Virus record (IMG/VR): IMGVR_UViG_3300009157_000010
Coordinates: 1-36,454 of that record
DNA length: 36,454 nt
Origin: a virus
Reading direction: 5' to 3' (one strand)
Shown piece after piece: positions 1 through 36,454 of the stretch. The position numbers were made by a program, and so were the translations under genes. How positions within the stretch are numbered: the stretch's first letter is position 1; the number at the start of each line of letters is the position of its first letter. The notes below the pieces were generated by a model, which was not told where the DNA came from, made no database searches, and saw nothing but the letters and a program-made list of their open reading frames with translations.

Positions 1-123
1 CTTATTATCTTTGCTTCCAGTCTTTCCTTTTAAGATAGCGAGTATTTTATCAATGTTTTTATAACCATTTTGTTTTTTTAGTGATTCAAAATAAGATAGC
101 GGTCTCCAAGTTCTTACAATACA
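1..123. repeat. Direct terminal repeat, left copy
   Basis: These 123 bases recur without a mismatch at 36332-36454. A perfect repeat at both ends of a phage contig usually means the assembled molecule is circular or circularly permuted. The portal gene reads in frame through the join, which supports a unit genome of 36,331 bp. A true short terminal repeat of the packaged DNA cannot be excluded from sequence alone. Confidence 0.95.
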
Positions 124-612
124 GTAATCACTATCCTCTACACTAACCGCACCAACTTGAGGAAATACATCTCGGATATTAAGTAACCACATATCTGGAC
201 CAACATATCCATTCTTACCTACATTCCAATCAACTAGAGTATAGAACTTACCATATAAATTAGAATATAAATCAACTAATCTTAGTTTAGTAAGAAAATC
301 AAATTGAGAATTAGCATTTGGGATAATGTATTTGTCTAAAGTCAAGTTCATCAACTTAGATGCTCCACCATCATTCTTACTGATACCTTTTACCTTACCA
401 GTAGCTAATTGCCCCATAACTCTATAAGCACGTTCAATTAAAAGAGTAGATAGTTTAGGATCAAATACTTGTGATTTTTGTATAGTAGAGATGGCATCAG
501 ATAAGATGTTGTGAAATAGTTTTTCCCACGTGTCCCAATTATCTCGTTTTGTTTCTAAATAATCCTCTGCTGCTTGTTTTCTTGATAAGATTTGATTTTT
601 TGTTTCTGACAT
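1..612 (-). CDS. Portal protein, N-terminal 204 codons (gene continues at 36331 to 35150)
   Basis: ATG at 610-612 opens a frame that stays open to base 1 and continues in phase at 36331 once the 123-bp repeat is collapsed, ending at 35150. The joined protein is about 597 residues, in the usual size range for portals of short-tailed phages. The portal forms the dodecameric ring at the packaging vertex, through which DNA enters and leaves and on which the adaptor docks. The call rests on length, position between terminase and scaffold, and the overall mixed helical character. No single motif proves it. There is no Shine-Dalgarno: the ATG follows directly on the U-run of an intrinsic terminator, so expression probably depends on read-through or antitermination. 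Confidence 0.8.
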   Translation of the reverse strand, partial: MSETKNQILSRKQAAEDYLETKRDNWDTWEKLFHNILSDAISTIQKSQVFDPKLSTLLIERAYRVMGQLATGKVKGISKNDGGASKLMNLTLDKYIIPNANSQFDFLTKLRLVDLYSNLYGKFYTLVDWNVGKNGYVGPDMWLLNIRDVFPQVGAVSVEDSDYCIVRTWRPLSYFESLKKQNGYKNIDKILAILKGKTGSKDNK

Positions 613-6553: not shown

Positions 6554-7099
6554 TTATTTAATATATCCAAGTTTTCTAGCACAAACCCAAGGATTTAGGC
6601 CTTGTTCTTGATAAAGTGTGTAAATAAAATCTATGTTTTTAACAAAGTCCATTCTATCTTGACGGCTAATTCTTTTAGAATGTACATCGTTTATTTGTCC
6701 GATTCCTACGTCAAAAGTTCCATTGGAGTTTTTATTTAATGCGTCCGGTCTTAAACCTGATTCACATTTCATTGTCGCAATAATTTTGGTGATTTCGGTA
6801 TCTTTAATTCCTAATTGAGTACCCTTACATCTTAAATACGTTATAGGGTCGTAATCGCAAGGAACTTCATTACTAGTCACTTCTACCGCTTTTACTTCAA
6901 TCATTGATTTACCGTCATTTGGTGAGTCTAATTTTACTTGTTTATAAGGATTGTCGGCAATGAATAATCCAAATAAAGAGCCTAATATAATTCCATCTAC
7001 TAAGGCAGCCAAAGTATATTTGTTAAACCATCTTTGAAAGTCTTGGTTTCTTTTATATCTTTGATCGAGTAAGTTTTTGATTTCTATTTTGTTTTTCAT
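6554..7099 (-). CDS. Membrane-anchored lytic transglycosylase (SLT-like)
   Basis: A 181-residue protein. A basic N-terminus is followed by a transmembrane helix at about residues 27-47 (LAALVDGIILGSLFGLFIA) and a linker. The C-terminal 80 residues carry SLT hallmarks: catalytic Glu in KCESGLRP, then NGTFDVGIGQIN and an Asn/Trp-rich end. The reaction is cleavage of peptidoglycan between MurNAc and GlcNAc. With its membrane anchor and distance from the lysis genes it more likely opens the wall locally (DNA entry or assembly) than lyses the cell. It is the first gene after the structured RNA at 7111-7386. No Shine-Dalgarno precedes its ATG. Confidence 0.75.
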   Translation of the reverse strand: MKNKIEIKNLLDQRYKRNQDFQRWFNKYTLAALVDGIILGSLFGLFIADNPYKQVKLDSPNDGKSMIEVKAVEVTSNEVPCDYDPITYLRCKGTQLGIKDTEITKIIATMKCESGLRPDALNKNSNGTFDVGIGQINDVHSKRISRQDRMDFVKNIDFIYTLYQEQGLNPWVCARKLGYIK

Positions 7100-12702: not shown

Positions 12703-13122
12703 CTACTTTCTAAACCTCAACCAACCTAATACTCCACGATAATCGTGATTGTAGTATCGGCAAGGAGACTTAGAAGGATAGTTTTGATCAAAGGAAATAA
12801 ATTTATTTACATTCGCACCAGTACAAATAGCAACGTGTCCGGCATATCCAGTAACAGGCCATTTCCAGTCCCAAAAAATTATGTCGCCTGGTTCGGGATA
12901 ATTATTGGGGGTGTTCTTAATCTTAGTAAATTTATCTGTTCCTAATAGAGGAAATCTTTTAAATATATTTTTGGCATAATCTGTCGGTGGGAGAGTATAA
13001 CCGTCTATCCCTAAAACATCTACACAATACTGTCTCATAAGGTCTACACATTGTGGACCAAATTTCTTATCGTAGTCAATGTATTTACCGTTATTCTTAT
13101 TTACAAAATCGTTTAGTTTCAT
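12703..13122 (-). CDS. CHAP-domain endolysin
   Basis: A 139-residue enzyme consisting of a single CHAP domain: catalytic Cys25 in GPQCVDLMRQY, His96 in GYAGHVAICTG and Asp/Asn in FDQN at 111-114. CHAP domains cleave peptide or amide bonds of peptidoglycan. There is no signal peptide and no binding domain, so export needs a holin. An extended -10 (13129-13137) puts the predicted RNA start on or next to the ATG, so the mRNA may be leaderless. Confidence 0.85.
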   Translation of the reverse strand: MKLNDFVNKNNGKYIDYDKKFGPQCVDLMRQYCVDVLGIDGYTLPPTDYAKNIFKRFPLLGTDKFTKIKNTPNNYPEPGDIIFWDWKWPVTGYAGHVAICTGANVNKFISFDQNYPSKSPCRYYNHDYRGVLGWLRFRK

Positions 13123-13128: not shown

Positions 13129-13137
13129 ATTATAACA
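13129..13137 (-). promoter_or_regulatory. Extended -10 promoter for the endolysin
   Basis: TGTTATAAT on the minus strand with no clear -35. The -10 ends 7 bases before the endolysin ATG, so the expected start point falls at the ATG itself. Confidence 0.55.
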
Positions 13138-13574: not shown

Positions 13575-14402
13575 TTAGAAAAAATTAAAAAAATTTGATG
13601 ATTTAGGTTCTAATTTCCAAGTACTAGATGATGTAAAAGTATGTATAGTTTCAGAACCTACAACAGTTTTAGTACCACCAGTAGCTAAATAAGCTGAAAA
13701 ATCAGCTGTTAAGTAAGAAATTATCACTGTTCCATCTCCACCTTTTGCTCCATTATAAGAAACTCCACCATATCTTCCACCACCTCCACCACCACCACCA
13801 CGTCCATCCATACCAGCAGCACCAGTTGTACGATATCCACTATTACCACCTACACCTGAACCACCAGTACCAGGAGTTGTTCCATCATTTCCAACAGCAC
13901 CTCCGCCTCCACCAGAATAATATAAAGCAGAACCACTTATAGAATTTGATGTACCAGCACCTCCATTTCCACCAACACCGTTTGTACCAGCAGCACCAGC
14001 AGCAGCCGATCCTCCACCACCTCCGGCAGATGGTTCACCTACAATATTTCCATTAGCACCATTATTACCTTGAGATGGACTTGTACTTGGAGTATTTCCA
14101 GCTCCACCACCATTTACGATAGCTCCACCTCCTGAACCTCCAGCACCACCACCAGAATCATCTTCTCCTGAACCTCCATAACCTCCTCCAGTCGCCGTAA
14201 TCGTATCAAAAACAGAATCATTACCTTTACCACCTTTATTTGTTGTTCCAGCAGCACCACCAGTTCCGACAGTAACGGTATATGTTTGAGGAGTAACAGT
14301 AAAAGCAGCATTATATCTATAACCACCAGCACCGCCACCTCCACCCCATTTAGCACCGCCACCTCCACCGCCGACTACTAATAATTTAACTGCTAATGCC
14401 AT
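13575..14402 (-). CDS. Glycine-rich tail adhesin / receptor-binding tip
   Basis: A 275-residue protein. After VKLLVVGGGGGG, residues 10-225 are dominated by glycine clusters separated by short strands, with a conserved-looking TYTVTVGTGG motif. The end is a short beta segment with HTFTSSSTWKL. Glycine-rich sandwiches of this kind form the tip of phage adhesins such as T4-group gp38, where poly-glycine helices present hypervariable loops to the receptor. It is the last virion gene before the lysis genes, as expected for a tail-tip protein. It joins the gene upstream without a gap. Confidence 0.7.
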   Translation of the reverse strand: MALAVKLLVVGGGGGGAKWGGGGGAGGYRYNAAFTVTPQTYTVTVGTGGAAGTTNKGGKGNDSVFDTITATGGGYGGSGEDDSGGGAGGSGGGAIVNGGGAGNTPSTSPSQGNNGANGNIVGEPSAGGGGGSAAAGAAGTNGVGGNGGAGTSNSISGSALYYSGGGGGAVGNDGTTPGTGGSGVGGNSGYRTTGAAGMDGRGGGGGGGGRYGGVSYNGAKGGDGTVIISYLTADFSAYLATGGTKTVVGSETIHTFTSSSTWKLEPKSSNFFNFF

Positions 14403-15266: not shown

Positions 15267-15275
15267 ATTATATCA
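15267..15275 (-). promoter_or_regulatory. Extended -10 promoter for the tail fibre and tip genes
   Basis: TGATATAAT on the minus strand. Its TGA is the stop codon of the tail hub gene. No good -35. The leader to the ATG at 15252 is about 8 nt. Confidence 0.6.
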
Positions 15276-18011: not shown

Positions 18012-18020
18012 ATTATATCA
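18012..18020 (-). promoter_or_regulatory. Extended -10 promoter before the adaptor attenuator
   Basis: TGATATAAT on the minus strand, right after the TAG stop of the 1,419-residue gene, with no good -35. Start expected near 18005, so the default RNA would be about 50 nt, ending at the terminator 17954-17981. Confidence 0.6.
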
Positions 18021-22290: not shown

Positions 22291-23553
22291 TTAAAAACCA
22301 AATAAGCTATTCTTTTTTTCTTCAGTATTACCAGTAGACCAACCTTGTAGGTTAGCTAGATTAAAGTTACCTCTTGAGTCAACTGTTGGAGTTCCACTAA
22401 ACTGCTGAGCTGTTGGTAAATTAGCTTGATAGTTAGATACATTAGCAAGGTTTGATTTAAGTTCACCGATTGTCTTACTATTATTCATAGCCCATTCTTG
22501 TAGAGCTGATTGTTTGCTTCTAGCTTCTGTATCAATAGTATTTAGTCTATTAATAGCATTTTCAAGTAGTGTTTTAGATAAGTTAGTTAAATCAGTACTC
22601 TTTTGTAACTGTCCACTAGCTTTAGCTTGTCTGATTTGATTTTGAGCATTATCAAACCACTGAGCTACTTCAATTACTTTATTATCTCGTTCAGTTTTAA
22701 GATTATTAACTGCGTTATTGTATGTTTCACCCAAAGCAGTTTCTCTCTTATTGATTTCAGCTTGTATAGAAGCTGTTTGAGAAGTAACATCACCACGAGC
22801 TTTGTTACCTTGTTTGGTAAGAGCATATGAGTATTGATTAGCAGCTGAGCTATCCCCTGCTCCTCTTGAACCTAAATAGACATTTCCAGCCATAAACATA
22901 TTTCTTAAATTTTCTGATAAGTCTTTAAGATTTTTTGATTGATTGGTAACGGCACTTTCTCTTTCACCTTGTAAGCTAGATAAACCTTGAGATTTTTGTA
23001 AATCTAAATCACTTACTCCTTGACCAAATTGATTTTGAACTATTTGTTCTTGACCAGTCCTTTGACCGGTAAGACTATTCATCATATTGTCTAATTCACT
23101 AAAATAGTTAGAATAACCACTTTCAATTTCACCTCTTACTCTATTAGTCATATCATCTACACCGCCACCACCTGAACCACCTGATCCAGTTTTAGAACGC
23201 CATGTTTGTTCCCAATCCATTCTAATAGCATTTGGATCGTTCCAACCTTGATAAAAACTCATATCTACTGATGGGATACCACTACCAGAATTACCACTTG
23301 GTACTGAACTACCGCCTGATTGTTGTCCTGTTGGGAGGGTTGGGGTATTAGAGTTTAACTTTTCATTAGTCAACATATTGTTGATTCTATTGATATTATT
23401 GTAATCAACATTACTATAGTCTAGTCCTGGTTCAGCAGCAGATACTTGGTTTACCCAACTTCCAGTCATTGGTCCACCACCAACAGAACCAACACCAACA
23501 TTTTGTAATTTTGTCCAATCGTTTAGGTTTCCACCTGAATAATTTAAAGCCAT
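22291..23553 (-). CDS. Coiled-coil internal virion protein
   Basis: A 420-residue protein. The N-terminal 130 residues are low complexity (Gly/Ser/Asn) and end in SGGSGGGG. Residues about 135-370 form a long Gln/Asn/Lys-rich coiled coil (GQRTGQEQIVQNQFGQG, ERDNKVIEVAQWFDNAQNQ). A short C-terminal region follows. It sits immediately before the giant internal protein, as do helper ejection proteins of short-tailed phages. No Shine-Dalgarno. A terminator lies 17 nt before the ATG. Confidence 0.6.
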   Translation of the reverse strand: MALNYSGGNLNDWTKLQNVGVGSVGGGPMTGSWVNQVSAAEPGLDYSNVDYNNINRINNMLTNEKLNSNTPTLPTGQQSGGSSVPSGNSGSGIPSVDMSFYQGWNDPNAIRMDWEQTWRSKTGSGGSGGGGVDDMTNRVRGEIESGYSNYFSELDNMMNSLTGQRTGQEQIVQNQFGQGVSDLDLQKSQGLSSLQGERESAVTNQSKNLKDLSENLRNMFMAGNVYLGSRGAGDSSAANQYSYALTKQGNKARGDVTSQTASIQAEINKRETALGETYNNAVNNLKTERDNKVIEVAQWFDNAQNQIRQAKASGQLQKSTDLTNLSKTLLENAINRLNTIDTEARSKQSALQEWAMNNSKTIGELKSNLANVSNYQANLPTAQQFSGTPTVDSRGNFNLANLQGWSTGNTEEKKNSLFGF

Positions 23554-23636: not shown

Positions 23637-23666
23637 ATTGTAACAATCTTATTTAGATGGTGTCAA
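23637..23666 (-). promoter_or_regulatory. TTGACAC-class promoter before the internal-protein genes
   Basis: Minus strand: -35 TTGACA (23661-23666), 18-nt spacer, -10 TACAAT (23637-23642). It lies inside the last codons of the glycosyltransferase gene ending at 23649. Confidence 0.8.
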
Positions 23667-24758
23667 TATACCTGAGAAGAATTTGGCGTAATCCTCTACG
23701 TGTTCATTTATAGTCCAATTTTCTTTGGTTGTCTTGTATGCTTCTTCACCCATACTCTTTCGTAATTCTTTATCATCTATGAGTTTTTTAATCTTTTCAT
23801 ACCATTCATCTGCTGTCTTAGCTAAGAATCCATTTTTACCATCTTCAATAATCTCGGAATATTGGCGAATATCTTGATAAACTCCGGGTATCTTAGCACT
23901 AGATGTTTCAATATATTTAATACTAGATTTACAACGTGTATAGATACTGTCTTCTAGTGGAACTATTAAAATGTCAGTTCTATCCATAAAATCTGGGAAC
24001 TTATCTTTTATCCAATGGTAAATATCTACGTGACCAAATCCATTACTATATCTATTACCATACTTATTCCTAAACTCTTGAATAAATGAACCAACTGTCT
24101 GAATATTAACATTTGGGTATTCTTGCATTATCCGGTCTATTCCTTTTTGGAACTCTCTGTTTTGTAAATCAATATGATGAGTAGATGAACCGTGGTGGAG
24201 TAAAGTTATATTAAGTTCGTCTTTGAATGGTGAGATGTGATTATAGAGTTCTAAGTCTATATAGTTAGGAAATACTTTTACATTTTCATCTCGTTTCTTA
24301 GTATTGTTACAAATTACATTTTTAAGATATTGATTAGTAGTGGTTACATAATCAACAGCGTCACACATACAAGATAAGTTACTCAGGGCTAGTGAACCTT
24401 TTTTATAGACTTCATAAGCTGGATTATCTGGTAATATTTCCCATAGAGCATCATCTAAGTCCATCACTACTTTTGTTCCATATTTTTGAGCCATACAACC
24501 CATTTGAGCGAATCCCCAATCGTTAGTTATGTAGTTAAGATAGATAATGTCGTATTCTTGGGCTACATTACTCCAATTAGCTTCTTCTGGTGGATCGTTA
24601 ATATCATAGACTCTGGTTTCAAATTTAACCCCATCTAACTTAAATCCGTTTAAGTGTTTAAGAGGTTGGATAATACGAGCAAAATCTACACCTGATACTC
24701 TTTCTTTTGTTTGGTGACTTTGAAGTCCATAAATCTTGATTTTATTTTTGTGTTTCAT
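23649..24758 (-). CDS. GT-B glycosyltransferase (GT4-like)
   Basis: A 369-residue protein with two Rossmann-like halves. The N-terminal half contains GVDFARIIQPLKHL and VVMDLDDALWEILPDNP (about 96-112). The C-terminal half has the sugar-nucleotide site of GT4 enzymes, CKSSIKYIETSSAKIPGVY followed by DGKNGFLAKTADEWYEKI and a helical KELRKSMGEEAYK end. It would move a sugar from a nucleotide donor to a glycan or protein acceptor in the cytoplasm. It is the last gene of the cassette, with a 4-base overlap upstream. Donor and acceptor are unknown. Confidence 0.8.
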   Translation of the reverse strand: MKHKNKIKIYGLQSHQTKERVSGVDFARIIQPLKHLNGFKLDGVKFETRVYDINDPPEEANWSNVAQEYDIIYLNYITNDWGFAQMGCMAQKYGTKVVMDLDDALWEILPDNPAYEVYKKGSLALSNLSCMCDAVDYVTTTNQYLKNVICNNTKKRDENVKVFPNYIDLELYNHISPFKDELNITLLHHGSSTHHIDLQNREFQKGIDRIMQEYPNVNIQTVGSFIQEFRNKYGNRYSNGFGHVDIYHWIKDKFPDFMDRTDILIVPLEDSIYTRCKSSIKYIETSSAKIPGVYQDIRQYSEIIEDGKNGFLAKTADEWYEKIKKLIDDKELRKSMGEEAYKTTKENWTINEHVEDYAKFFSGILTPSK

Positions 24759-25540
24759 ACTGGATGGTGCATAACTTTTAACTTAGGGTGTTGGGTTTCT
24801 TCTATAAAGTTGTCTAGTTTACGGCTGAAATCTGCTTTTAGACTATTATAATGAAGTGTAAAACCTTGGGTATCTAATGGGACGTTTTCTTCTAAACCCC
24901 AAGATATACCGTTCATTCCTGGTTCATAGTTCTTATAATCATCTTTTGAATAAACGTTATTTATCATTCTTACCTTACACCCACAAAGCCTAGCTATCTC
25001 ACTCATAGCACTAACTGGATCATACTGGTATATTTCTTGACACTCGTTTAACACGTCTGCTAACCATTGCTGGTTTCTTGACATTTCACGAGTAATTTCA
25101 ATAGCATCTTTTGGATGGTATTCTGAGTTGTAACCCTTACCGACGAAGTAGGCTGTCTTAGTTCTTGGTTTGTGTTGGTCTTTGAATGTATGAGTATCTA
25201 TTATAGGAAGGAACATTAAGTCTTTATTATCTACTCCCCATACATCAAATAACTTACTAAAGACTATAATTTTGTCTTTCTTGTCAAATTGAGTTGGACC
25301 AGGTACTCCGTTACTAGCCATTACACCTGGTTTGTTAAGAATATAACGAATAACTGTATTGGCTTGGGCTGGATTTCCTTGTACTATTTCAGGATAGATA
25401 GCGATTATATCTCCTTCCGGTCGTCTATTCATATAAACTTCTTGACCTTTGGCTAATAGGTGGCCGAATAATCCCCACATGACACGAATTCCACCACTTG
25501 TTAAAGAAAAATCAGGACTCATTATTACATATGGTTTCAT
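24755..25540 (-). CDS. Glycosyltransferase-like protein (GT-B fold)
   Basis: A 261-residue protein beginning YVIMSPDFSLTSGGIRVMWGL, the N-terminal strand and glycine loop of GT-B transferases. It continues with VIRYILNKPGVM, then IIVFSKLFDVWG, and a C-terminal Rossmann part (YFVGKGYNSEYHP, DPVSAMSEIARLCGCKV) resembling rhamnosyltransferase-type proteins with the pattern tests P-x-SAM-EIA. It is shorter than typical GT-B enzymes (350 or more). The partner gene downstream may complement it. Tightly coupled at both ends. Confidence 0.6.
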   Translation of the reverse strand: MKPYVIMSPDFSLTSGGIRVMWGLFGHLLAKGQEVYMNRRPEGDIIAIYPEIVQGNPAQANTVIRYILNKPGVMASNGVPGPTQFDKKDKIIVFSKLFDVWGVDNKDLMFLPIIDTHTFKDQHKPRTKTAYFVGKGYNSEYHPKDAIEITREMSRNQQWLADVLNECQEIYQYDPVSAMSEIARLCGCKVRMINNVYSKDDYKNYEPGMNGISWGLEENVPLDTQGFTLHYNSLKADFSRKLDNFIEETQHPKLKVMHHPV

Positions 25541-26280
25541 ATTGTGCTTAGTCTCATTGATTTACCATAAGAGGAGACAAACTCTAAGTATTCTTTAACT
25601 TCTAATCTAAAATCTGAGTTACTAAAATCTAATTTAGGAAATACAGCACCCTTAGCCCAATGATAGGCTTTAAATTCTTCTCCGTTAAGTGTTAGACGGT
25701 CATCTTCTACTCTTACCTTACTTTCTTGTCCCAAAGATTTACATCCGAGATAGTTTTTGTCTTTATCCCAAATAAGACGATTCATTTCTTTAACTTTTGG
25801 ATTGTTGTACCAGACTAAATTAAGAATATCATTCTCTTTACACTTATAACCCATAGCTTTTTTGTTTTCTTCTTCCCAAATATCCCAAAATTCTAGCTTT
25901 GATGACCCCACTAGACCCGCTTGAACGTACGATTTTTCATCAACCGACTCTACACTCATATTTTCATAAGAATTGTAGTTCCACGCCGCTCCAACTTCCC
26001 ATTCAGTATCTAATATCTCTGTTAGTCGTCCACAAATGACATAATCGGCATCAATATTGATAACTCTCTCATATTGGTCGGTAAGTAATTTCGCAAAAGT
26101 TGGTTTAGCATTATAAAAGTTTATTCCTTTCTCTTTAAATACTTTATCAATCATATCTTGTCTAAAGACAATCAAATCAATATCAGGGTGAAAGCGTTTA
26201 AAAGAATTTATAAACTTATGAGTACCGATAGGATAATAATATCTATCATCTACTATGGTAAAAAAACACGTCGATCTCAT
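25537..26280 (-). CDS. GT-A glycosyltransferase (GT8-like)
   Basis: A 247-residue protein with YERVINIDADYVICG: the metal- and donor-binding DxD is Asp77-Ala-Asp79. The preceding helix-strand pattern and the later VQAGLVGSSKLEFWDIW and YHWAKGA segments fit GT8-type retaining transferases (glycogenin/galactosyltransferase group). ATG overlaps the methyltransferase stop. Donor unknown. Confidence 0.7.
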   Translation of the reverse strand: MRSTCFFTIVDDRYYYPIGTHKFINSFKRFHPDIDLIVFRQDMIDKVFKEKGINFYNAKPTFAKLLTDQYERVINIDADYVICGRLTEILDTEWEVGAAWNYNSYENMSVESVDEKSYVQAGLVGSSKLEFWDIWEEENKKAMGYKCKENDILNLVWYNNPKVKEMNRLIWDKDKNYLGCKSLGQESKVRVEDDRLTLNGEEFKAYHWAKGAVFPKLDFSNSDFRLEVKEYLEFVSSYGKSMRLSTI

Positions 26281-26957
26281 TCCCTTACAAATAATACAAT
26301 AATTGCGGAACTTTGATATCTTCGTGCTTTATATCCTAAATCTTCCATATATGATACTAAGTTCATCCAAGTAGGGAAGTGAAACTCTATTTCAATGGCT
26401 TTAATCTTATCGCAAACTTTTTTAAACCCTTCACTTCGTAAAATATCATCTTCCGCTCCTTCTACATCAAACTTCATAAAGTCTACTTTTTCAATATCGT
26501 TTTCTTTAAAGAAAGTATCAAAGGCTTGGGCTTTAACTGATTCAGCACCGTCTACATAATCTAAGACATAAGAATTACAAGTTCGGTTTTTACCGTTCTT
26601 GTGCATCGTAACTTCTCCATCTTTTCCAGCAATAGCCATATTAAAGATTTCTACATTATCCCATTCGTTAAACTCTTTATTCTTTTTAAGAGCAGCAAAG
26701 TGTTCTGTACTTGGTTCAATAGCATAGACTTTTTTGGCATATCTTTGGAAGTGTTGAACTGTAACTCCGATGTTAGAACCAACGTCAACTATAACTAAGT
26801 CTTTATTTTCGTGTCCATTAAGGATATCTATATAAACTCCTTCAAAATAAATCTCTCTATAAATATAAGGAATATAAAGTGTATCAAAATCTATCTTTTC
26901 ACCATTATATTCAGTAGGGTAGAATAATCCACCAAGTTTAACATTTGTATCTGTCAT
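26277..26957 (-). CDS. FkbM-family SAM-dependent methyltransferase
   Basis: A 226-residue protein. SAM-binding motif I VIVDVGSNIGVT (about 55-66), acidic loop VYAIEPSTEHF, then VEIFNMAIAGKDGEV and the FkbM signature KVDFMKFDVEGAEDDIL near 155-171. FkbM enzymes O-methylate sugars, often capping or decorating surface glycans. All SAM contacts are in place. It sits between the transketolase C-half and the GT8-like gene and is coupled to both. Confidence 0.85.
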   Translation of the reverse strand: MTDTNVKLGGLFYPTEYNGEKIDFDTLYIPYIYREIYFEGVYIDILNGHENKDLVIVDVGSNIGVTVQHFQRYAKKVYAIEPSTEHFAALKKNKEFNEWDNVEIFNMAIAGKDGEVTMHKNGKNRTCNSYVLDYVDGAESVKAQAFDTFFKENDIEKVDFMKFDVEGAEDDILRSEGFKKVCDKIKAIEIEFHFPTWMNLVSYMEDLGYKARRYQSSAIIVLFVRE

Positions 26958-27457
26958 CTTTTTAATGAAATAAATAAAGGTTTTCCATCTCCAATAGCTT
27001 GTTTAACCAGTATTGGAATGGTTTCTAAATCTTTGGGAAAATATTGGTCTATATTTGTTAGGGTATTTAAAACATCTTTTACATCTGGTGATTGATGAGT
27101 CCAACCATCATGGTCATAATCATAATCTCTACCACTTCCAATTAATTTAACTGGTATCTTTTCAAGATTAATATAGTTTCTAAGCCATTCATAAGGTCTA
27201 TATACTGTGAAGTTAGTTATAGAATAAAAGAAAGGTATCTTACCTTGTATGGCTAATCCAATAGCAATACCAACTCCTGCTTGTTCAGCAGCACCAGCAT
27301 TGATAAATCTATCTGGAAAGTCCTCTCTAATACGATCAAACATCTTATAACCTAAATCCCCAGTAATTAAGTAAATATCTGGGTTATTCTTCATTTCTTC
27401 GTATAAGTAATAGGCAAAGTAGCCTCTTTGTGATTGATGTGGTTTATCAAAATTCAT
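26954..27457 (-). CDS. Transketolase-like protein, C-terminal (pyrimidine) half
   Basis: A 167-residue protein equal to the PYR domain of ThDP enzymes: YLITGDLGYKMFDRI, then RFINAGAAEQAGVGIAIGLA with the catalytic Glu58 that activates the cofactor, and SGRDYDYDHDGWTHQSPDV, a His-containing active-site loop. The third transketolase domain is absent. With the N-half at 27711-28328 it should form an alpha2-beta2 enzyme moving a two-carbon ketol unit, as in split transketolases of sugar clusters. Donor and acceptor are not known. A glycan-sugar role is inferred from the neighbours. Confidence 0.8.
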   Translation of the reverse strand: MNFDKPHQSQRGYFAYYLYEEMKNNPDIYLITGDLGYKMFDRIREDFPDRFINAGAAEQAGVGIAIGLAIQGKIPFFYSITNFTVYRPYEWLRNYINLEKIPVKLIGSGRDYDYDHDGWTHQSPDVKDVLNTLTNIDQYFPKDLETIPILVKQAIGDGKPLFISLKR

Positions 27458-27714
27458 TTTGTTATCTCCTTACCAAATAAATCAGATTTATTTGTAAAAC
27501 CTTTAATTTTACCTTCTAATCTAAAAAGAATATCTTTTTTTAGATTCTTGCCTATTTTTATCCATTGATCTTCAAACTTATACCCAAAACTTTTATTTTC
27601 ATCAATTAAATGTTCAAAATACCAGTCATCAATAACATATGTATTATCAATTTTTCTATTTTCTTTTTGTGGTAATCTTTCAGTTAAAGTAATATTTATT
27701 TTAATTCCACTCAT
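27454..27714 (-). CDS. 86-residue protein wedged between the transketolase halves
   Basis: A beta-rich small protein (IKINITLTERLPQ, YVIDDWYFEHL, FGYKFEDQWIKIG, DILFRLEGKIKG). It overlaps both transketolase halves by 4 bases, so all three are made in step. No recognisable family. It may be a third subunit, a specificity factor or an acceptor-binding module. This is inference from position. Confidence 0.55.
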   Translation of the reverse strand: MSGIKINITLTERLPQKENRKIDNTYVIDDWYFEHLIDENKSFGYKFEDQWIKIGKNLKKDILFRLEGKIKGFTNKSDLFGKEITK

Positions 27715-28328
27715 TTTATTATCTCCTTATATTGTTCGTCATTCATAACTACATAATGTCCATCTACATTTTGTAACCAAGACGGATATTTATACATATC
27801 TGCTTTGATTGTCATTACAGGGAAGAAACTCTTTAATCTACCTTCTAAATAATCAGTATCTATCTTTCCATAGGCACTTTGTCCATTGACAATGACAGTG
27901 ACTCGTAAATTATCTAATCTTTGTTCAGCAGCAGTTCTTAAAGCTTCCCATACACTACCCTCAGCACAAGCACCATCACTAGTAACTAAATAAATATCTT
28001 TTTTCCTATCAGCCATAGCCATACCTACTGCGATAGTTTCTGGTTGACCTAAACTACCACCACTAACATAAACTCCGTGTTCTATATCTCTAAAAGCATG
28101 AGTACCATATTTTTCTAACATTTCCTCTGCATTGCAAAATCCATATTTTTCTAATACTACCCATAAAGCTAAAGCAGCATGAGAATTACCTAAGACTACT
28201 AAATCATCTTTTTTCTTGATTGAGTATATATGATCTAAAACATTGACAGTTGTTAAACAAGAACTTAAATGAGATTTATTGTGTTTATAAGACAAATCAA
28301 TTATTCTTTTTTCTAGTGGATTTAACAT
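27711..28328 (-). CDS. Transketolase-like protein, N-terminal (diphosphate-binding) half
   Basis: A 205-residue protein. His20 in SHLSSCL matches the conserved transketolase His. SGGSLGQPETIAVGMA (89-104) and the ThDP motif TSDGACAEGSVWEAL (116-130) with Asn148 in VIVNGQ give the metal-diphosphate site, with the first Gly of the usual GDG replaced by Ser117. Asp118, Glu123 and Asn148 are kept, so binding is plausible. It lacks the PYR half, which is encoded two genes on. Confidence 0.8.
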   Translation of the reverse strand: MLNPLEKRIIDLSYKHNKSHLSSCLTTVNVLDHIYSIKKKDDLVVLGNSHAALALWVVLEKYGFCNAEEMLEKYGTHAFRDIEHGVYVSGGSLGQPETIAVGMAMADRKKDIYLVTSDGACAEGSVWEALRTAAEQRLDNLRVTVIVNGQSAYGKIDTDYLEGRLKSFFPVMTIKADMYKYPSWLQNVDGHYVVMNDEQYKEIIK

Positions 28329-28981
28329 ATTAATTCATTAATTTTTAATCTAACGTCATCTTTAAATTTGTCTAGTAATATTTTTCCATGTTGTTTCCAA
28401 GCATCACCAGCTGCATGAAAGATACACAGTTTTTTGTCTCCTTCATCGGAAGGTAAATATATTTCATTATCTTTCAAAAATATATTTTGATAATTTATCA
28501 TATCTTCAATACCGTATGATTTATCTGGAAATGACAATGCTTTTGTCTTATATTTACCAGAATAAAATAAAGTTGTGCTTAAATTTTGACTAGCCATCCA
28601 TCCATCACTTTTACTAAATTCCTCAATAAGTTCATCATATTTTACCCAAAATCTTGGAGAGTTTGAAACAACTATACCATTATTCATACCTGTTTTATCT
28701 TGATAATTACCATTATTGTAAGGTAGGGCTATTTCAAAATCATCATCAAACAATTCATCACATTTATTACACATAATAGAATCACCGTTTATATGAATAA
28801 CAGTATCAAATTCTTTATGAAGTTCTTTATAATGTCTTGCATCTTGATATAATTCTGTTACTTCATTTATATAATAATGGAAAAATGGTAAATCTGGATA
28901 AAACTTTTTAACACTAGCAATCATTTGGTTGGTCATTTCTCTAAACTCTGGTGATGATACTACCCAAAAACAAGCTTTCAT
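28322..28981 (-). CDS. GT-A-like glycosyltransferase
   Basis: A 219-residue protein. The strand EFDTVIHINGDSIMCNKCDELF (about 57-78) has the shape of a GT-A donor site, with an NGDS in place of a classic DxD. MNNGIVVSNSPRFWVKYDEL and a C-terminal CIFHAAGDAWKQHGK supply the remaining GT8-like pattern including the metal His. It is related in layout to the GT8-like gene at 25537. Start and stop overlap both neighbours. Substrate unknown. Confidence 0.6.
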   Translation of the reverse strand: MKACFWVVSSPEFREMTNQMIASVKKFYPDLPFFHYYINEVTELYQDARHYKELHKEFDTVIHINGDSIMCNKCDELFDDDFEIALPYNNGNYQDKTGMNNGIVVSNSPRFWVKYDELIEEFSKSDGWMASQNLSTTLFYSGKYKTKALSFPDKSYGIEDMINYQNIFLKDNEIYLPSDEGDKKLCIFHAAGDAWKQHGKILLDKFKDDVRLKINELIC

Positions 28982-29754
28982 TTTTTATACTCCTCACACA
29001 TATTTTTAATAGATTGTTCTAGTGAAATACGAGGCAACCAACCCCAAGACCTTGATTTAAAATTTTGAGATACCCATTCGTTGTTATCATAGGCTCTCAT
29101 ATTATCAATAATCTTAACTTTAATCTTTTTACCAGTTATTTTCTCTACTAAGTCAAATACTTCTTTATTAGAATACTTTTTGCCTGTTCCTAATTCAAAG
29201 ATACCCCTAACTCCATGAGAACTAAGATTAATTATTCCATCTGTTAAGTCGTCTATATCAATAAAATCGTGAGTTGGATTTGGGACTAAGTTTATTTCTT
29301 TACCAGTATAAGCAGCATCAATTAAAACAGGAATTAAATGCTTAGGTTGTTCTCCCGCTCCAGTAACTGAGAAAGGTCTGACAACACAAAAAGGTAAGTG
29401 GTATTTTTCAATGAATGAGAGTATTAATTCTTCTCCAGCTTTCTTAGTCCTAGAATACATTGTCTGGATAGGAAGTTTAACAGAGGAAGTAGAGATATAA
29501 ACAAAGGATTTGAAATTAAATTTAGAGGCTTGAGTGAGAACATTACAAAGGTCAATTATATTAGCTTGGATTATCTTATCATCTTCTTGTTGATCGGCCA
29601 AGTTACCATAAGCAGAGCAAAAATAGAAATTATCAAATTCTTCTAATTTAGTTGTGGAAATTTTATCGTGTGGAATACAAATGGTTTCACCTGTTAATTT
29701 CTTTAACAAGTTACTACCGACAAAACCTGAACTTCCTGTTAGAATATTTTTCAT
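28978..29754 (-). CDS. NAD-dependent sugar epimerase/reductase (extended SDR)
   Basis: A 258-residue protein with Gly7-xx-Gly10-xx-Gly13 (TGSSGFVG) at the NAD site, NIIDLCNVL, and the catalytic Tyr100-xxx-Lys104 (YSRTK) after FVYISTSSV. VVRPFSVTGAGEQP and the C-terminal EWVSQNFKSRSWGW segment fit nucleotide-sugar epimerases, dehydratases or reductases. It is the first gene of the glycan cassette and has a strong ribosome site (GAGGAG 8 nt before ATG) and its own promoter, so it sets expression of the whole set. The exact reaction cannot be read from sequence. Confidence 0.8.
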   Translation of the reverse strand: MKNILTGSSGFVGSNLLKKLTGETICIPHDKISTTKLEEFDNFYFCSAYGNLADQQEDDKIIQANIIDLCNVLTQASKFNFKSFVYISTSSVKLPIQTMYSRTKKAGEELILSFIEKYHLPFCVVRPFSVTGAGEQPKHLIPVLIDAAYTGKEINLVPNPTHDFIDIDDLTDGIINLSSHGVRGIFELGTGKKYSNKEVFDLVEKITGKKIKVKIIDNMRAYDNNEWVSQNFKSRSWGWLPRISLEQSIKNMCEEYKK

Positions 29755-29780: not shown

Positions 29781-29789
29781 ATTATATCA
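29781..29789 (-). promoter_or_regulatory. Extended -10 promoter of the glycan cassette
   Basis: TGATATAAT on the minus strand, two bases after a TAA stop, no good -35, about 27 nt before the epimerase ATG. The same nonamer as at 15267 and 18012. Confidence 0.65.
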
Positions 29790-29791: not shown

Positions 29792-29932
29792 TTATTTCTT
29801 ATATGGAAGTTTTTTTACTTTTACACCTTTTAAAAACTCTTTAGCTCTTTCTTTAGAAAGACCTTTTTTCTTAATCTTTCCTGAAGCTACCATTCCCATA
29901 AAACCTGCTTGTTTTTTTGATTTTACTGGCAT
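29792..29932 (-). CDS. DUF3008-like small basic protein
   Basis: A 46-residue protein: PVKSKKQAGFMGMVASGKI followed by a KGLSKERAKEFL helix and a basic KVKKLPYKK end. This is the layout of the small DUF3008-type proteins found in many phages and bacteria. Lys-rich and probably nucleic-acid binding. No established function. Confidence 0.65.
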   Translation of the reverse strand: MPVKSKKQAGFMGMVASGKIKKKGLSKERAKEFLKGVKVKKLPYKK

Positions 29933-29951
29933 AGTTTGTTTAATTAATAAT

Positions 29952-29984
29952 TTATTTCTTTTTACCTCCACATTTTTTATTCAT
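29952..29984 (-). CDS. 10-codon micro-ORF, copy 2 (MNKKCGGKKK)
   Basis: Identical peptide, with 30 identical bases, to 13540-13572. Its ATG overlaps the end of the 46-residue gene upstream. Its GGAGG is 29 nt from the next ATG, too far to be that gene's ribosome site, so the conservation is more likely for the peptide or for the RNA. Confidence 0.45.
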   Translation of the reverse strand: MNKKCGGKKK

Positions 29985-30117
29985 GGTTGTTTTCCTCTTT
30001 TACTTCCACATCTTTTAAATTACTCAATACTTGAATAGCACCAGCAACCTCTTGATAAGGTCGGGTAACTAAATAATCTAACAAGGCTTTAACTACATCA
30101 TTTTCTATTTGTTTCAT
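29977..30117 (-). CDS. 46-residue protein of unknown function
   Basis: A helical frame (NDVVKALLDYLVTRP, AGAIQVLSNL) with an acidic tail. Overlaps the micro-ORF. A short gap follows the fibre gene upstream. Unknown. Confidence 0.45.
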   Translation of the reverse strand: MKQIENDVVKALLDYLVTRPYQEVAGAIQVLSNLKDVEVKEENNHE

Positions 30118-30136: not shown

Positions 30137-31504
30137 TTATTTTGATGTAATTAAGCGAGAACCAATAGTATCGCACTGATAATGTATTCCTAGCATTCCT
30201 AAAAATGGGTTATTGGTTGGTTCTGTACCAGTACCCGCTATTCTTTTAATTCTTGTTTTAATTTGGCACCCAACAGTCATTCCAGTACCGCTTATTGTTC
30301 CCATTGATAAATAAAAAGCAGATTTATCTAAAGTATTAGCAGGGATAGTTAATTCAGCATCCAAATAAGCTTCTGCTGAAAATTGATGTGTTCCAGTATT
30401 AGGACAACCAAGTGAATAATAAACCCTATATTTAACTTTTCTTTCATTTGTGTCACTACCGTTTGTGGCTAAATGTAAATGAATTTCAAAATCAGTTCCT
30501 TCTTTATAACCATGTAAAATTTCCATAGTAGATAAATCAACATAATCATCCACTTTAAAAGTATATGAACCTAAATTAGTTGTAAATGTAGACCAATCAG
30601 GATAATTAGCAGCTGGTATTTTAGCAGCAGCAACAGCAGTATATATATCGTTATAAACTATGGTATTTAATAATAAAGTTTTAGCCGCACCAGTAGTTAT
30701 TAACAAATCATGAGCTGAGGTAGTATTTGTTTTAATCCCTATAGTTCTAGTAGTAGCTTCACCATCTGTTGCCATATAAACGTCAGTAACATCTGGACTC
30801 CCTATTGTCGCTGTATTAGAACCTGCACCATCAACATTAAATCCGATAGCAATTTCATTAGTATTACCATTAGCACTTCCTTTTGAATCGTATCCAATAT
30901 AAACACAATAATTGTTAGTAGTTAATGTTCCCCAATCTTTATTAAAAGAACCAGAATCATAACCAATAGCCACATTACCAATCCCGGTAAGATTGTAATA
31001 TGAAGAAACATTACCTATAGATAGGTTATAATTTCCTTCAGTATTTGCCACTAAAGCAAATGATCCTATTCCTAAATTCTGTTGACCATAAGTGTTGTTA
31101 TACATTGAATGAAATCCAAGAGCAAAGTTTTGTTCTCCAGTAGTGTTTAAATATAGAGCTTCAATCCCAATGGCTACATTGGTTGCTCCTGTAGTATTTG
31201 AATATAAAGCTCCATTGCCAATAGCCATATTGTAAAAAGCTCCATTTTGTAAACTACCACCGCCATCACCAATAAACATTGAACCAGCAAAATTACTGTT
31301 TAAAGCTCCAGCATTATAAATTGTTTGCTGACCGTTAACAGCTATTTTACCTATAATATCTAGTCCAATAGAAGTAACTGATGACATTGAAATAGTCAAT
31401 TTATCAGTCATCGTATCACCTGTTACATTTACAAATCTCCCATCAAGCCAGGCAATACTTCTAATGTAGTCAAAGGTACCGTTAGTCGGATTCCATTTGA
31501 GCAT
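30137..31504 (-). CDS. Fibre protein with YadA-head-like 17-residue repeats
   Basis: A 455-residue protein. The N-terminal part (about 1-90) includes TGDTMTDKLTI, a fibre-anchor motif. Residues 93-185 hold about five 17-residue repeats of the form xAIGxxALYxNTxGxxN, as in the left-handed parallel beta-roll of YadA-type trimeric adhesins. A conserved-looking C-terminal beta domain follows (about 300-455, with IHLHLATNGSDTNERKV and FLGMLGIHYQCD). It is probably a trimeric head or tail fibre that touches the host or its glycans. It has a clear ribosome site (AAGGAG). The glycan cassette begins about 1.8 kb further along the operon. Confidence 0.7.
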   Translation of the reverse strand: MLKWNPTNGTFDYIRSIAWLDGRFVNVTGDTMTDKLTISMSSVTSIGLDIIGKIAVNGQQTIYNAGALNSNFAGSMFIGDGGGSLQNGAFYNMAIGNGALYSNTTGATNVAIGIEALYLNTTGEQNFALGFHSMYNNTYGQQNLGIGSFALVANTEGNYNLSIGNVSSYYNLTGIGNVAIGYDSGSFNKDWGTLTTNNYCVYIGYDSKGSANGNTNEIAIGFNVDGAGSNTATIGSPDVTDVYMATDGEATTRTIGIKTNTTSAHDLLITTGAAKTLLLNTIVYNDIYTAVAAAKIPAANYPDWSTFTTNLGSYTFKVDDYVDLSTMEILHGYKEGTDFEIHLHLATNGSDTNERKVKYRVYYSLGCPNTGTHQFSAEAYLDAELTIPANTLDKSAFYLSMGTISGTGMTVGCQIKTRIKRIAGTGTEPTNNPFLGMLGIHYQCDTIGSRLITSK

Positions 31505-32244: not shown

Positions 32245-32495
32245 TAGAATTGTCTCCCATTTAAACGATTATGTTTATTACGATTCAATATCTCACTATA
32301 CTTTTTGATACTATATGTATCATTACCTCTAACGGCTTTAATTAGAATTTCTCTTATCTTACTTTCTTCTGGGGTTTCAGTTCTAATCTTTTTAACAGCA
32401 TCTTCAATACATCTTTTTTCCATAGGAGAACTAGCTTTTTGATAAGCAAGATACAGACTATCTAAGTCTATTTTTCTCCCATAGTCTAAGTTCAT
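32244..32495 (-). CDS. Small helical protein of unknown function
   Basis: An 83-residue, Lys/Arg-rich helical protein between the GroES gene and the 140-residue protein. No family recognised. Confidence 0.5.
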   Translation of the reverse strand: MNLDYGRKIDLDSLYLAYQKASSPMEKRCIEDAVKKIRTETPEESKIREILIKAVRGNDTYSIKKYSEILNRNKHNRLNGRQF

Positions 32496-32761
32496 TGTTC
32501 TATACCAAGTATGTCTTCTGGTGAAACGAATAAGTAATTTACCTTATCTTCAACATATTCATTTCCACCCCATTTCTTATAGATAACGAAGTCTCCGACT
32601 TTATAATCTAATTCTTCATCCATTTTACCAATCGCCACTATCTCTCCTCGTTGAGGTTTTTCTTTGGTAGTTCCATCTGGGATAAGAATACCACTATCTG
32701 TTTGTTTGATTTGTTCTTCCTCTTTGACGAGGATTTGGTTTTTATTTGGTCTTATTTTCAT
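32492..32761 (-). CDS. groES: GroES-type co-chaperonin (Cpn10)
   Basis: An 89-residue protein, the right length for Cpn10. KIRPNKNQILVKEEE opens the beta-barrel. The mobile loop (about 17-32) ends in SGILIPDG, equivalent to the GroEL-binding IVL/ILI of cellular GroES. EKPQRGEIVAIG, YKVGDFVIYKKWGGNEY and the terminal EDILGI strand are all present. No GroEL is encoded, so it would cap the host chaperonin, most likely to help fold the capsid protein encoded just upstream. Two hairpins lie between the capsid gene and this ATG, the second touching the ATG, and there is no Shine-Dalgarno, so output is probably kept low. Confidence 0.9.
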   Translation of the reverse strand: MKIRPNKNQILVKEEEQIKQTDSGILIPDGTTKEKPQRGEIVAIGKMDEELDYKVGDFVIYKKWGGNEYVEDKVNYLFVSPEDILGIEQ

Positions 32762-32820: not shown

Positions 32821-33774
32821 CTAAGCAGCAGTAAATCTAGCTGAAAGCACCCAAGAACTATTCAAGAGCTTACAAGCGTATGCACCTGCCCAAGAGATGA
32901 TCGAGATACGACCAGCTGGTGAGTTAGAATCCACAACGTTTGGAAGAATGTATAATTTTGGTTTATCTTGTTCAAGGTCATAAGCACCGAAAGAATCTTT
33001 ACCGTGAACATAAGTGTAGAATCTGACAACAGTAGAAGCTGCTGAACCAGAAGTCTCAGTTCCCGAAGATAAATCGTTGTTTAATAACCAGCGAACTTGA
33101 TAAAGTTCACCCATTTCACCTTTATATAAGCCTTTAACATCGGAATAAGTCTTAGAATTAATCCAAGTACTATCTCCGAGTAATTTGTATTTAGAATACG
33201 GATCGGTTTTACCAATAAACATTCCATCTTGATACTTCATCGCTTTTCCGAGTTCAAGTTGTCTGACCATCATTCTGATGTTACAGGCATCAAGCACATC
33301 TCCAGCGGCAATAGTATCTACGGTATGACCATTTGGGTAATAACTAGTTCCGTTTTGTAATTCAGTTCGAATTAAACGGTTAATAGTTTCACCCATATTT
33401 TGACCAACCAAAGAAACTTTTTCTTTCATGTTACTGTCGATTGAAATTAAAGATTCAATACGAGAAGTATTAACGGTTAAACCGTATTCGCTTAGAGTCA
33501 TTGCGACTGTACAAGCGGTAATAGAACAAGTAACTGGGTTAGAAGCCTCACCTAACGGTGTGGTTATAATGGTCAAAGGTTCGTATCGAGTAAAGTTTAC
33601 AGTGCGTCCTTCATTGACTGGATGAGTTCGAAGTTGTCCACCTTCTTTTAAGACTAATTCATATTCAGCACGAGCCAAAAATGTTTTGTCATAAAAAGTT
33701 TTGACTTCTGGACTCAAACTTGAGCCAGTATTGACGTTTGTAGCACCGGATATTCCACCACCAACAACTGCCAT
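32821..33774 (-). CDS. Major capsid protein (N4-gp56 family)
   Basis: A 317-residue protein of HK97 fold. FYDKTFLARAEYELVLKEGGQ (split, 27-47), GRTVNFTRYEPLTIITTPLGEA (split) and TVAMTLSEYGLTVNTS are the N4-gp56-type N-arm and E-loop region. YSDVKGLYKGEMGELYQVRW and DSFGAYDLEQDKPKLYI, then RISIISWAGAYACKLLN, are the family's conserved C-terminal half. It builds the icosahedral shell on the scaffold encoded upstream. The ATG has a U/A-rich leader and no Shine-Dalgarno, odd for a very abundant protein. Confidence 0.9.
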   Translation of the reverse strand: MAVVGGGISGATNVNTGSSLSPEVKTFYDKTFLARAEYELVLKEGGQLRTHPVNEGRTVNFTRYEPLTIITTPLGEASNPVTCSITACTVAMTLSEYGLTVNTSRIESLISIDSNMKEKVSLVGQNMGETINRLIRTELQNGTSYYPNGHTVDTIAAGDVLDACNIRMMVRQLELGKAMKYQDGMFIGKTDPYSKYKLLGDSTWINSKTYSDVKGLYKGEMGELYQVRWLLNNDLSSGTETSGSAASTVVRFYTYVHGKDSFGAYDLEQDKPKLYILPNVVDSNSPAGRISIISWAGAYACKLLNSSWVLSARFTAA

Positions 33775-34898: not shown

Positions 34899-35184
34899 TG
34901 ACCTTATTTAATATTTTTTCAACAATGTCTTTGGCTAAATTAATAACTACTGTGTTTCTGCCAATTTCTTCAAAAGATACCCCTGTAGATATTGCTAATC
35001 TATTAGCCTCATCAACTTCTTTTAATACATTACGAGCGTATTCAGAGATTATCTTCCAACCAACATTGTTGGTTAGAGCGTATAAATGGCGTTCTTCATC
35101 AGTAACACCTCTCTTTTTAGCTTCTTCATCTCTTTTAAAAGATTGAATATTAAAAATTGTTGGCTTGATTGCTTGGTTGTCCAT
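34846..35184 (-). CDS. Head-module protein of unknown function
   Basis: A 112-residue all-helical protein (WKIISEYARNVLKEVDEANRL near 43-63, NLAKDIVEKILNKV). It overlaps the end of the portal gene by 35 bases. No family recognised. Its place between portal and scaffold suggests a head accessory protein. Confidence 0.55.
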   Translation of the reverse strand: MDNQAIKPTIFNIQSFKRDEEAKKRGVTDEERHLYALTNNVGWKIISEYARNVLKEVDEANRLAISTGVSFEEIGRNTVVINLAKDIVEKILNKVNDAKEICEANIEEEKAR

Positions 35185-36454
35185 TCATCATCTCCTGTTC
35201 CATAGGTTGAGCTGGAACTTGATTAATACCTTGCATTTGTTGAACTGCTTGAGCGAATGTTTGAGCATCTTGACCTAAGACGACATCAGATTTTTCTTCT
35301 TCGGTTTGTTCTTCTATTATTTTGTCCCAATCTTGAATACCAGTATTACTGATTATTCTCTTTAACATTTCTCCTACTTTGATGTTGTAACCCTCTTGTG
35401 CGGCTATTTGAACTAAGTTTGGATTCTTCAATAGTAGTTCTATGAGGGAAGCCAGACTATCTTGTTGAGTCTTTTGATCTACAGCATAAGTTGAACCACT
35501 AACGATGTCATAATCATATAAAACATTGGCTACTTTTGATTTATTAATGGTTATCTTGCCAGTCTTCTTATCGTAAATGTCTTTAATCTCAGGATATTCA
35601 CGGCTAAGTTGTTCAATCTCTGGTTCAAACATTCTAATTTGAACAGATGAGTTGAGTTTTTTAGCGGTCAAATTGACCATCTTCTTACAGACTTTCTTAA
35701 CAAACTGTTCCATAAAGAATCTATCAGCAGCATCTCTTGTATTTTCTCTTGATTGTTGCATTTCTAAGGCTTGTGGAGTCTTACCAAATCCTGCCTCTGT
35801 TTGTTGGGTAACAGTAGTATCAGTAGTACCGAACATATTAAGTAGAGCCGCATTAGCTACTTGATAAGTATTATTGAAGTTAGCAATACCTTGAGGATTT
35901 AATTGAATTGGTTGAACTGCGTTGTTAATCTGTCCTCTAACTAACCACTTAGCAGCTGGACCCCACTTAAGAGAACTCATAGCAGCGATATTGTCTTTAT
36001 TAATCAACGTTGGAGGGAACATAGACATCTTGACTCCATCTAAGTATAAATTCCAAACAGAGTTAACTACTTGTTGCATCGGTGCGCCTCTTTCCATATC
36101 ACCCATTCCCATAATATCGTCTAACAAAGGAATAGAATGTTTTTCAATGATAGGGATATCATCGTCATCGTGAGGGTTCTTTTGGTCTCTAAATTCTAAA
36201 TCAGCATCAACACAGTAGTCCACCCATCGGTCCCTCTCGTATTGAGTTAATATTTCAAAGTAACCCGAATTTTTGGCGGATTGACCAGATGGGTAGGCTT
36301 CCTGTTCTCTTTGAGATTTACTATTTTCGTCCTTATTATCTTTGCTTCCAGTCTTTCCTTTTAAGATAGCGAGTATTTTATCAATGTTTTTATAACCATT
36401 TTGTTTTTTTAGTGATTCAAAATAAGATAGCGGTCTCCAAGTTCTTACAATACA
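35150..36454 (-). CDS. Portal protein, C-terminal part (joined in frame to 1-612)
   Basis: Open from the window end to the TAA at 35150-35152. Bases 36332-36454 repeat 1-123, so the unique part is 35150-36331 (393 codons). Seen here are VWNLYLDGVKMSMFPPTL, an AAKWLVRG segment, a GKTPQALEMQQSRENTRDAAD helix (the portal stem/crown region in this kind of protein) and a Gln/Met-rich, flexible end. Read with 1-612 it is one 597-residue gene. The apparent GTG at 36221-36223 is not the real start. Confidence 0.8.
   Translation of the reverse strand, partial: CIVRTWRPLSYFESLKKQNGYKNIDKILAILKGKTGSKDNKDENSKSQREQEAYPSGQSAKNSGYFEILTQYERDRWVDYCVDADLEFRDQKNPHDDDDIPIIEKHSIPLLDDIMGMGDMERGAPMQQVVNSVWNLYLDGVKMSMFPPTLINKDNIAAMSSLKWGPAAKWLVRGQINNAVQPIQLNPQGIANFNNTYQVANAALLNMFGTTDTTVTQQTEAGFGKTPQALEMQQSRENTRDAADRFFMEQFVKKVCKKMVNLTAKKLNSSVQIRMFEPEIEQLSREYPEIKDIYDKKTGKITINKSKVANVLYDYDIVSGSTYAVDQKTQQDSLASLIELLLKNPNLVQIAAQEGYNIKVGEMLKRIISNTGIQDWDKIIEEQTEEEKSDVVLGQDAQTFAQAVQQMQGINQVPAQPMEQEMMNGQPSNQANNF
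36332..36454. repeat. Direct terminal repeat, right copy
   Basis: Identical to bases 1-123. See the left copy. The unit genome is 36,331 bp when one copy is removed. Confidence 0.95.

Follow-up and report, generated by a model that had tools for sequence, protein, structure and literature searches.

A conserved seven-gene glycan cassette with a two-subunit transketolase-like enzyme in the virion operon of a lineage of small phages

The virus record IMGVR_UViG_3300009157_000010, analyzed over its whole length of 36,454 bp (the window), carries a glycan cassette inside its late virion operon. The cassette consists of nine minus-strand open reading frames (ORFs) running from 29754 to 23649 (Table 1), in which adjacent ORFs overlap by 4 bases (7 at one junction). 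An original prediction, made from the letters of this DNA alone, had described eight glycan enzymes and one orphan gene, chained by short overlaps within the virion operon and occupying about 17% of the genome. Every ORF was found at its predicted place and the share of the record is 16.7%; all eight enzyme genes exist, but, judged by the gene content of relatives, the core is seven genes, with the second GT-A-like gene (gtA2) and the orphan, an ORF of 86 amino acids (aa), being accessory. Pfam supports the epimerase (EPI), the transketolase N-terminal and pyrimidine domains (TK-N and TK-pyr), the FkbM methyltransferase, and the GT1-type glycosyltransferase (GTB), matches the gene at 25537 (GTA) weakly to GT8, and gives no match for three ORFs, while NCBIfam gave no equivalog-level name for any cassette protein. 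A perfect 123-bp direct terminal repeat and a portal gene spanning the record ends (35150-36223 and 1-612, minus strand, which match a single ORF in relatives) show that the genome is complete and was assembled as a circle. A portal gene split in this way is consistent with a circular or terminally redundant genome that was opened within the gene.

Table 1. Cassette genes, putative promoter, and candidate acceptor genes of the window.
Feature	Size	Coordinates	Strand	Status	Support and remarks
EPI, short SDR-family NAD-dependent nucleotide-sugar epimerase/reductase	258 aa	28978..29754	-	core	first cassette gene; Pfam Epimerase 3.7e-21; phrog_540 2.7e-40
gtA2, GT-A-like transferase	219 aa	28322..28981	-	accessory	distant paralogue of 25537-26280
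TK-N, predicted thiamine-diphosphate-binding subunit	205 aa	27711..28328	-	core	Pfam Transketolase_N 1.4e-6; best PDB profile match 6yak
86-aa ORF	86 aa	27454..27714	-	accessory	between both transketolase subunits
TK-pyr, pyrimidine-domain subunit	167 aa	26954..27457	-	core	Pfam Transket_pyr 1.3e-17
FkbM-family methyltransferase	226 aa	26277..26957	-	core	Pfam Methyltransf_21 4e-16
GTA, GT-A-fold glycosyltransferase (GT8-like)	247 aa	25537..26280	-	core	AlphaFold model and Foldseek; weak GT8 Pfam match
X, compact GT-B-like protein	261 aa	24755..25540	-	core	predicted model, weak GT-B likeness
GTB, GT-B-fold glycosyltransferase	369 aa	23649..24758	-	core	last cassette gene; Pfam Glyco_trans_1_4 4.6e-10; phrog_7162 2.5e-27
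Putative extended -10 promoter element TGATATAAT		29781..29789	-		cassette head; enriched there in relatives
Fiber/spike-like virion protein		30137..31504	-		phrog_6002 7.8e-17; phrog_4636 tail spike 1.2e-12; upstream context, candidate acceptor
Major capsid protein (MCP)		32821..33774	-		phrog_1357 major head protein 2.3e-40; anchor for finding relatives; candidate acceptor
GlyR, Gly/Ser-rich N-terminal part		22291..23553	-		after GTB in relatives whose contigs extend there; candidate acceptor

Relatives were sought in viral contigs by a capsid-protein search and by a profile of gene X, which recovered 56 and 39 contigs, respectively (17 common to both; about 78 distinct). The order EPI, TK-N, TK-pyr, FkbM, GTA, X, GTB, followed by the virion-module gene GlyR, is held in 57 of the 58 loci that possess at least three of the seven genes, a count into which the 17 doubly found contigs enter twice; the exception, L188, has EPI placed after the transketolase pair. 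Cassette genes are absent from 28 capsid loci, all of which end no more than 5.6 kb from the capsid gene, so that no locus contradicts the presence of the cassette, which elsewhere begins 0.3-8.9 kb after that gene. Likewise, the lineage capsid is present in 17 of 18 records found through X, and the near-complete records found by capsid also contain X. On this gene content, the cassette is a defining trait of a phage group with records of roughly 33-43 kb, and catalytic residues are invariant among relatives at about 50% identity. Nothing was returned by searches with one sequence at a time, whether TK-N was compared with viral contigs or X, GTA, and gtA2 with named phages; this reflects a limit of single sequences, because the capsid and X profile found dozens of relatives.

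The original prediction had proposed a search for the same gene order in phage and bacterial clusters, and had cautioned that a host O-antigen or capsule locus might have been joined to a phage contig as an assembly chimera. That caution is all that speaks for a chimera, an explanation of negligible probability that is ruled out by the recurrence of the identical string, in the same slot, in dozens of independent viral contigs. The complete terminal repeat also opposes it, as does the TK-N tree, in which the phage copies form one clade (support 99/98). The sole clade member from a cellular genome, L071, is a 5.5-kb phage-like contig from a Bacteroidales bin that carries the phage cassette. The whole gene string was found in none of the closest cellular loci examined (L071-L087); the FkbM/GTA part is confined to L071, and the others share EPI and the transketolase genes.

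Two of the core genes, TK-N and TK-pyr, encode a predicted two-subunit thiamine-diphosphate enzyme, for which the nearest solved structures are 6yak, the N-terminal component of a split-chain transketolase, and 6yaj. Residues His20, His50, Asp118-Gly119, and Asn148 of TK-N are invariant in relatives, with Ser replacing the first Gly of the GDG motif, and the catalytic Glu58 of TK-pyr is invariant as well; the thiamine-diphosphate site of transketolase (the GDG...N region and the catalytic Glu) is therefore represented in the pair. The TK-pyr profile aligns to residues 35-193 of the 341-residue 6yaj chain and ends there, and Pfam found no Transketolase_C domain, so that of the PP, Pyr, and C-terminal domains of transketolase the last is missing and the phage pair is not an ordinary transketolase. 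The split that had been predicted is genuine, since the two subunits are separate ORFs in all relatives, but the enzyme is of this short form. The closest cellular homologues, located on genome contigs, are equally short pairs with 36-47% identity and a clear score gap beneath them. These adjoin an SDR epimerase and GT2/GT1 glycosyltransferases, with methyltransferases, aminotransferases, or CMP-sugar-type transferases nearby, and occur in Microgenomates, Omnitrophota, Elusimicrobia, Actinomarina, Maricaulis, and one thaumarchaeal metagenome-assembled genome. Transketolase matches in “phage” records such as L002-L005 and L008 were set aside, being split transketolases of the ordinary kind, 270-340 aa long and probably of cellular origin.

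Intact thiamine-diphosphate residues would also suit a pair acting as an auxiliary metabolic gene, one that adjusts the pentose-phosphate pathway to supply nucleotides in the manner of cyanophage transaldolase, with the glycosyltransferases being unrelated neighbors. However, the pair lacks the C-terminal domain, the short transketolase family adjoins SDR and glycosyltransferase genes in cells, and the pair keeps a fixed gene order with the glycan genes in almost every phage relative. Sugar modification is a more probable role than pentose-phosphate metabolism, given that the cellular relatives occupy surface-polysaccharide loci in which they adjoin an SDR epimerase and glycosyltransferases; the auxiliary role is judged very improbable.

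The PDB profile matches of EPI are dTDP-glucose dehydratases and UDP-sugar epimerases, and its SDR active site (S-S, Y, K) is invariant across 16 relatives. The methyltransferase belongs to the FkbM family, scoring 60.1 bits against PF05050 (cut-off 22.7) and 98.4 against TIGR01444 (cut-off 37.7). AlphaFold models of GTA and X (TRANSFERASES) were built from lineage alignments and are fairly confident. The GTA model (pLDDT 81.5) returned Foldseek matches to WbbM, mimivirus R699, glycogenin, and LARGE1, with E-values from 1e-6 to 4e-8, and its DXD motif is D77-D79. Gene X has no match in Pfam, PHROG, NCBIfam, or PDB sequences; its model (pLDDT 88.2) gave weak structural matches to GT-B enzymes (TM about 0.5), from which it may be read as a putative transferase. 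X occurs in 39 viral loci at 49-58% identity across most of its length and, in the collections searched by sequence, was confined to this phage lineage. As for the accessory genes, gtA2 has nothing above the Pfam cut-off, shares about 20-26% identity and the DXD-region Asp with the GTA family, and has relatives in just four other loci (L169, L176, L179, L186), where its position varies, and the 86-aa ORF has no Pfam, PHROG, or NCBIfam match and is absent from the relatives compared.

Among the weak fold matches of X is the T4 alpha-glucosyltransferase (1ya6), and phage glycosyltransferases can act on DNA (PMC12619734), which raises the alternative that the cassette glycosylates phage DNA to evade restriction, as in T4-like phages. 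This is improbable: the window genes tested against Pfam included neither a hydroxymethylase nor a thymidylate-synthase-like gene, many of the small early genes being without a family; the SDR enzyme, transketolase, and FkbM have no known part in such a process; and the cassette lies among late virion genes, not replication genes.

The motif TGNTATAAT occurs at five minus-strand sites (2604-2612, 13129-13137, 15267-15275, 18012-18020, and 29781-29789), all of them in non-coding DNA (9% of the sequence) and immediately upstream of genes, which suggests a shared promoter type. The last of these is the promoter originally predicted, and it exceeds chance: the extended -10 element is present just ahead of EPI in 11 of 59 loci, or in 6 of 38 once duplicates are set aside, relative to a background of about 0.3-0.4% (0.3% in random 120-mers). 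It almost never precedes other cassette genes (1 of 55 for TK-pyr). A sigma-70 scan of the region performed no better than shuffles, and only the extended -10 element stood out. Given the placement of the motif in non-coding DNA and its enrichment upstream of EPI in relatives, it is probable that a separate promoter within the virion operon serves the cassette. The accompanying claim of a single strong ribosome site at the head was not borne out, as gtA2, the 86-aa ORF, and TK-pyr are also preceded by good Shine-Dalgarno sites.

Two functions had been put forward for the cassette, virion glycosylation and remodeling of the host surface, and the former is ranked here, on indirect grounds, as the likelier. 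Specifically, the reading in which the virion is glycosylated late, with a sugar that is methylated and may be branched, is given roughly even chances. The original prediction of a complete synthesis-transfer-methylation set does not stand, as no enzyme forming a nucleoside diphosphate sugar lies within the window; the pathway is therefore incomplete, and the host would provide the activated nucleotide sugars. EPI and the two-subunit thiamine-diphosphate enzyme would modify one of these, most plausibly through addition of a two-carbon ketol unit onto a keto-sugar followed by reduction or epimerization, yielding a branched sugar. GTA, X, and GTB would act one after another to attach sugars to an acceptor in the cytosol, for which a virion protein (capsid, fiber, or GlyR) is the likeliest choice, and FkbM would methylate the glycan, with the likely benefit being an altered particle surface (adsorption, stability, or shielding). 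A cytosolic, late-made acceptor, i.e., a virion protein, is favored because of the capsid and tail gene neighborhood, and because the cassette proteins include no hydrophobic segment of membrane-spanning strength and no flippase, polymerase, ligase, Gtr-type membrane protein, initiating phosphoglycosyl transferase, or lipid-carrier function.

The branching step draws on precedent. YerE-like enzymes of lipopolysaccharide are established to branch nucleotide keto-sugars in a thiamine-dependent manner, and transketolases have been proposed to branch keto-sugars in miharamycin and amipurimycin (PMC12247030), from which a sugar-branching role can be inferred for the phage pair. All are thiamine-diphosphate enzymes acting, or in the phage presumably acting, on sugars in a glycan context, and the phage pair lies beside an SDR enzyme; YerE, however, is a member of the decarboxylase superfamily and not a transketolase, whereas the phage pair is transketolase-like.

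Several points weigh against virion glycosylation as outlined above. The branching role is drawn by analogy, and the SDR sequence does not reveal the substrate of EPI. Distances between MCPs and between cassettes correlate only moderately (Mantel r 0.34-0.58), indicating that parts have been exchanged. Finally, cytosolic glycosyltransferases act on lipid-linked precursors too, and so the missing membrane proteins are no proof of a protein acceptor.

Late remodeling of the host surface polysaccharide, which would mask the receptor and keep progeny from being lost to debris or superinfecting phages, is the main alternative, possible but rather unlikely. The closest cellular relatives of EPI, TK-N, and TK-pyr reside in surface-polysaccharide loci; in one freshwater SAR11 genome, a hypervariable region discussed in terms of phage defense contains partial-domain transketolases along with glycosyltransferases, methyltransferases, and epimerases (PMC6811365); and the accessory genes of the cassette vary as in a serotype locus. 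Opposing this, the membrane and lipid-carrier machinery listed above is missing from the cassette, and expression from the late virion operon means that a change in the host surface would come late. The same lack of a membrane-spanning segment separates the cassette from the serotype-converting gtrABC system, which comprises the membrane flippase GtrA, the bactoprenol glycosyltransferase GtrB, and the membrane glycosyltransferase GtrC.

In its gene content, the cassette resembles a surface-antigen locus, with a fixed core and changing decorations. Add-ons in other phages include a second FkbM copy (present in many relatives), a TylF-like methyltransferase, and an asparagine-synthase-like protein paired with a cytidylyltransferase-like one, and some phages have GT2 and UDP-glucose-dehydrogenase-like genes beside the fibers. 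A LicD-like reading of two further ORFs (L028:12033-12572 and L049:16938-17543) was dropped for want of Pfam support. Two more distant phages (L195 and ctQWt234) have other glycan genes in a comparable slot; in L195, the gene set comprises capsid, GT2, methyltransferase, SDR, deacetylase-like, GTB, GlyR, and virion genes of 225 and 668 aa. It is tempting to suggest, as the hallmark of the lineage, a virus-run carbon-branching pathway, in which EPI and the short transketolase would produce a novel branched nucleotide sugar for three dedicated glycosyltransferases to load onto the virion. The slot would then act as a viral serotype locus into which related phages have placed glycan genes of other kinds. 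This bolder extension of virion glycosylation is doubtful.

Phage-encoded virion glycosylation is already known from mycobacteriophages, and autonomous virion glycosylation from giant viruses. In mycobacteriophages, glycans occur on capsid and tail subunits and are attached with phage-encoded glycosyltransferases (Freeman et al. 2023, as cited in PMC12691614 and PMC12619734). The cassette is alike in encoding glycosyltransferases, with the GT-B assignment of X being weak; the mycobacteriophage reports, as cited in those papers, concern glycosyltransferases, whereas the seven-gene core adds an SDR enzyme, a two-subunit thiamine-diphosphate enzyme, and a methyltransferase. Chloroviruses (290-370 kb) and mimiviruses use their own glycosyltransferases and sugar-making enzymes for an autonomously produced virion glycan (PMC9614988), which the cassette would parallel. 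Those are large eukaryotic viruses, in contrast to one compact operon in a 36-kb phage, and neither transketolase nor FkbM, both present in the cassette, is mentioned in that review. Cellular short split transketolases, including partial forms in the Fonsibacter hypervariable region (PMC6811365), likewise have adjacent short TK-N and TK-pyr genes, usually beside an SDR gene, but their loci lack the phage FkbM/GTA/X/GTB set and the phage copies form a separate clade. Finally, the podovirus ctQWt234 (MW202801) has six glycan genes directly after its capsid gene (two glycosyltransferases, a methyltransferase, and NodB-like, PhyH-like, and radical-SAM-like genes), the last glycosyltransferase being 25% identical to GTB; the enzymes are otherwise different, with no transketolase or epimerase, and its capsid is not detectably related by BLAST.

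The unusual feature is that small phages share a conserved core of seven genes, which includes a two-subunit thiamine-diphosphate enzyme and is found in every informative member of the lineage; an earlier description of such a core did not turn up in the literature searched. If the glycan is on the virion, some small tailed phages would carry an obligatory phage-run sugar pathway, giant-virus-like in its logic, within a genome of about 36 kb. The cassette would also offer a ready enzyme set for an uncharacterized family of short split transketolases that little-known bacteria also carry in polysaccharide loci, and, with its conserved core and variable add-ons, a comparative system for phage glycan function.

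The cassette had been placed between fiber and internal virion genes, and this slot is conserved, but two small ORFs (29792-29971 and 29977-30117, minus strand) lie between the fiber gene and EPI. One is basic (46-59 aa) and the other is of 46 aa; no Pfam match was found for the basic ORF or for GlyR. Elsewhere in the virion operon are a GroES co-chaperonin-like gene (32492-32761, minus strand) and, near the operon’s end, a Gly_rich_2 (Pfam) protein (13575-14402, minus strand) that may be a fiber-tip protein. In L021 (16560-16847) and L155, the GroES-like gene instead separates X from GTB within the cassette. A CHAP-domain protein (12703-13122) and a transglycosylase-like protein (6554-7099), both on the minus strand, are likely lysis or entry enzymes. 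Both capsid and GTB genes are targets of homing elements in some relatives: in-frame LAGLIDADG insertions of intein or intron type occur in the MCP of L064 (10025-11386) and L065 (4433-5935) and in the GTB of L021 (16844-18958), and a GTB of about 700 aa is also seen in L157 and L159.

When hosts were sought with the capsid profile, 396 Bacteroidota genomes gave nothing convincing, with a single match that was weak and partial, and 193 Omnitrophota genomes gave no match; the X profile found nothing in 380 Patescibacteria genomes. Distant capsids were found on small contigs in 2 of those 380 Patescibacteria genomes, where misbinning is possible, and no host is therefore claimed. These contigs, L194 and L195, carry other glycan genes after the capsid gene and, in L195, virion genes. 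One relative, L175 (IMGVR_UViG_2721755361_000001), has an IMG number that resembles that of a genome project, not a metagenome, and may name a host.

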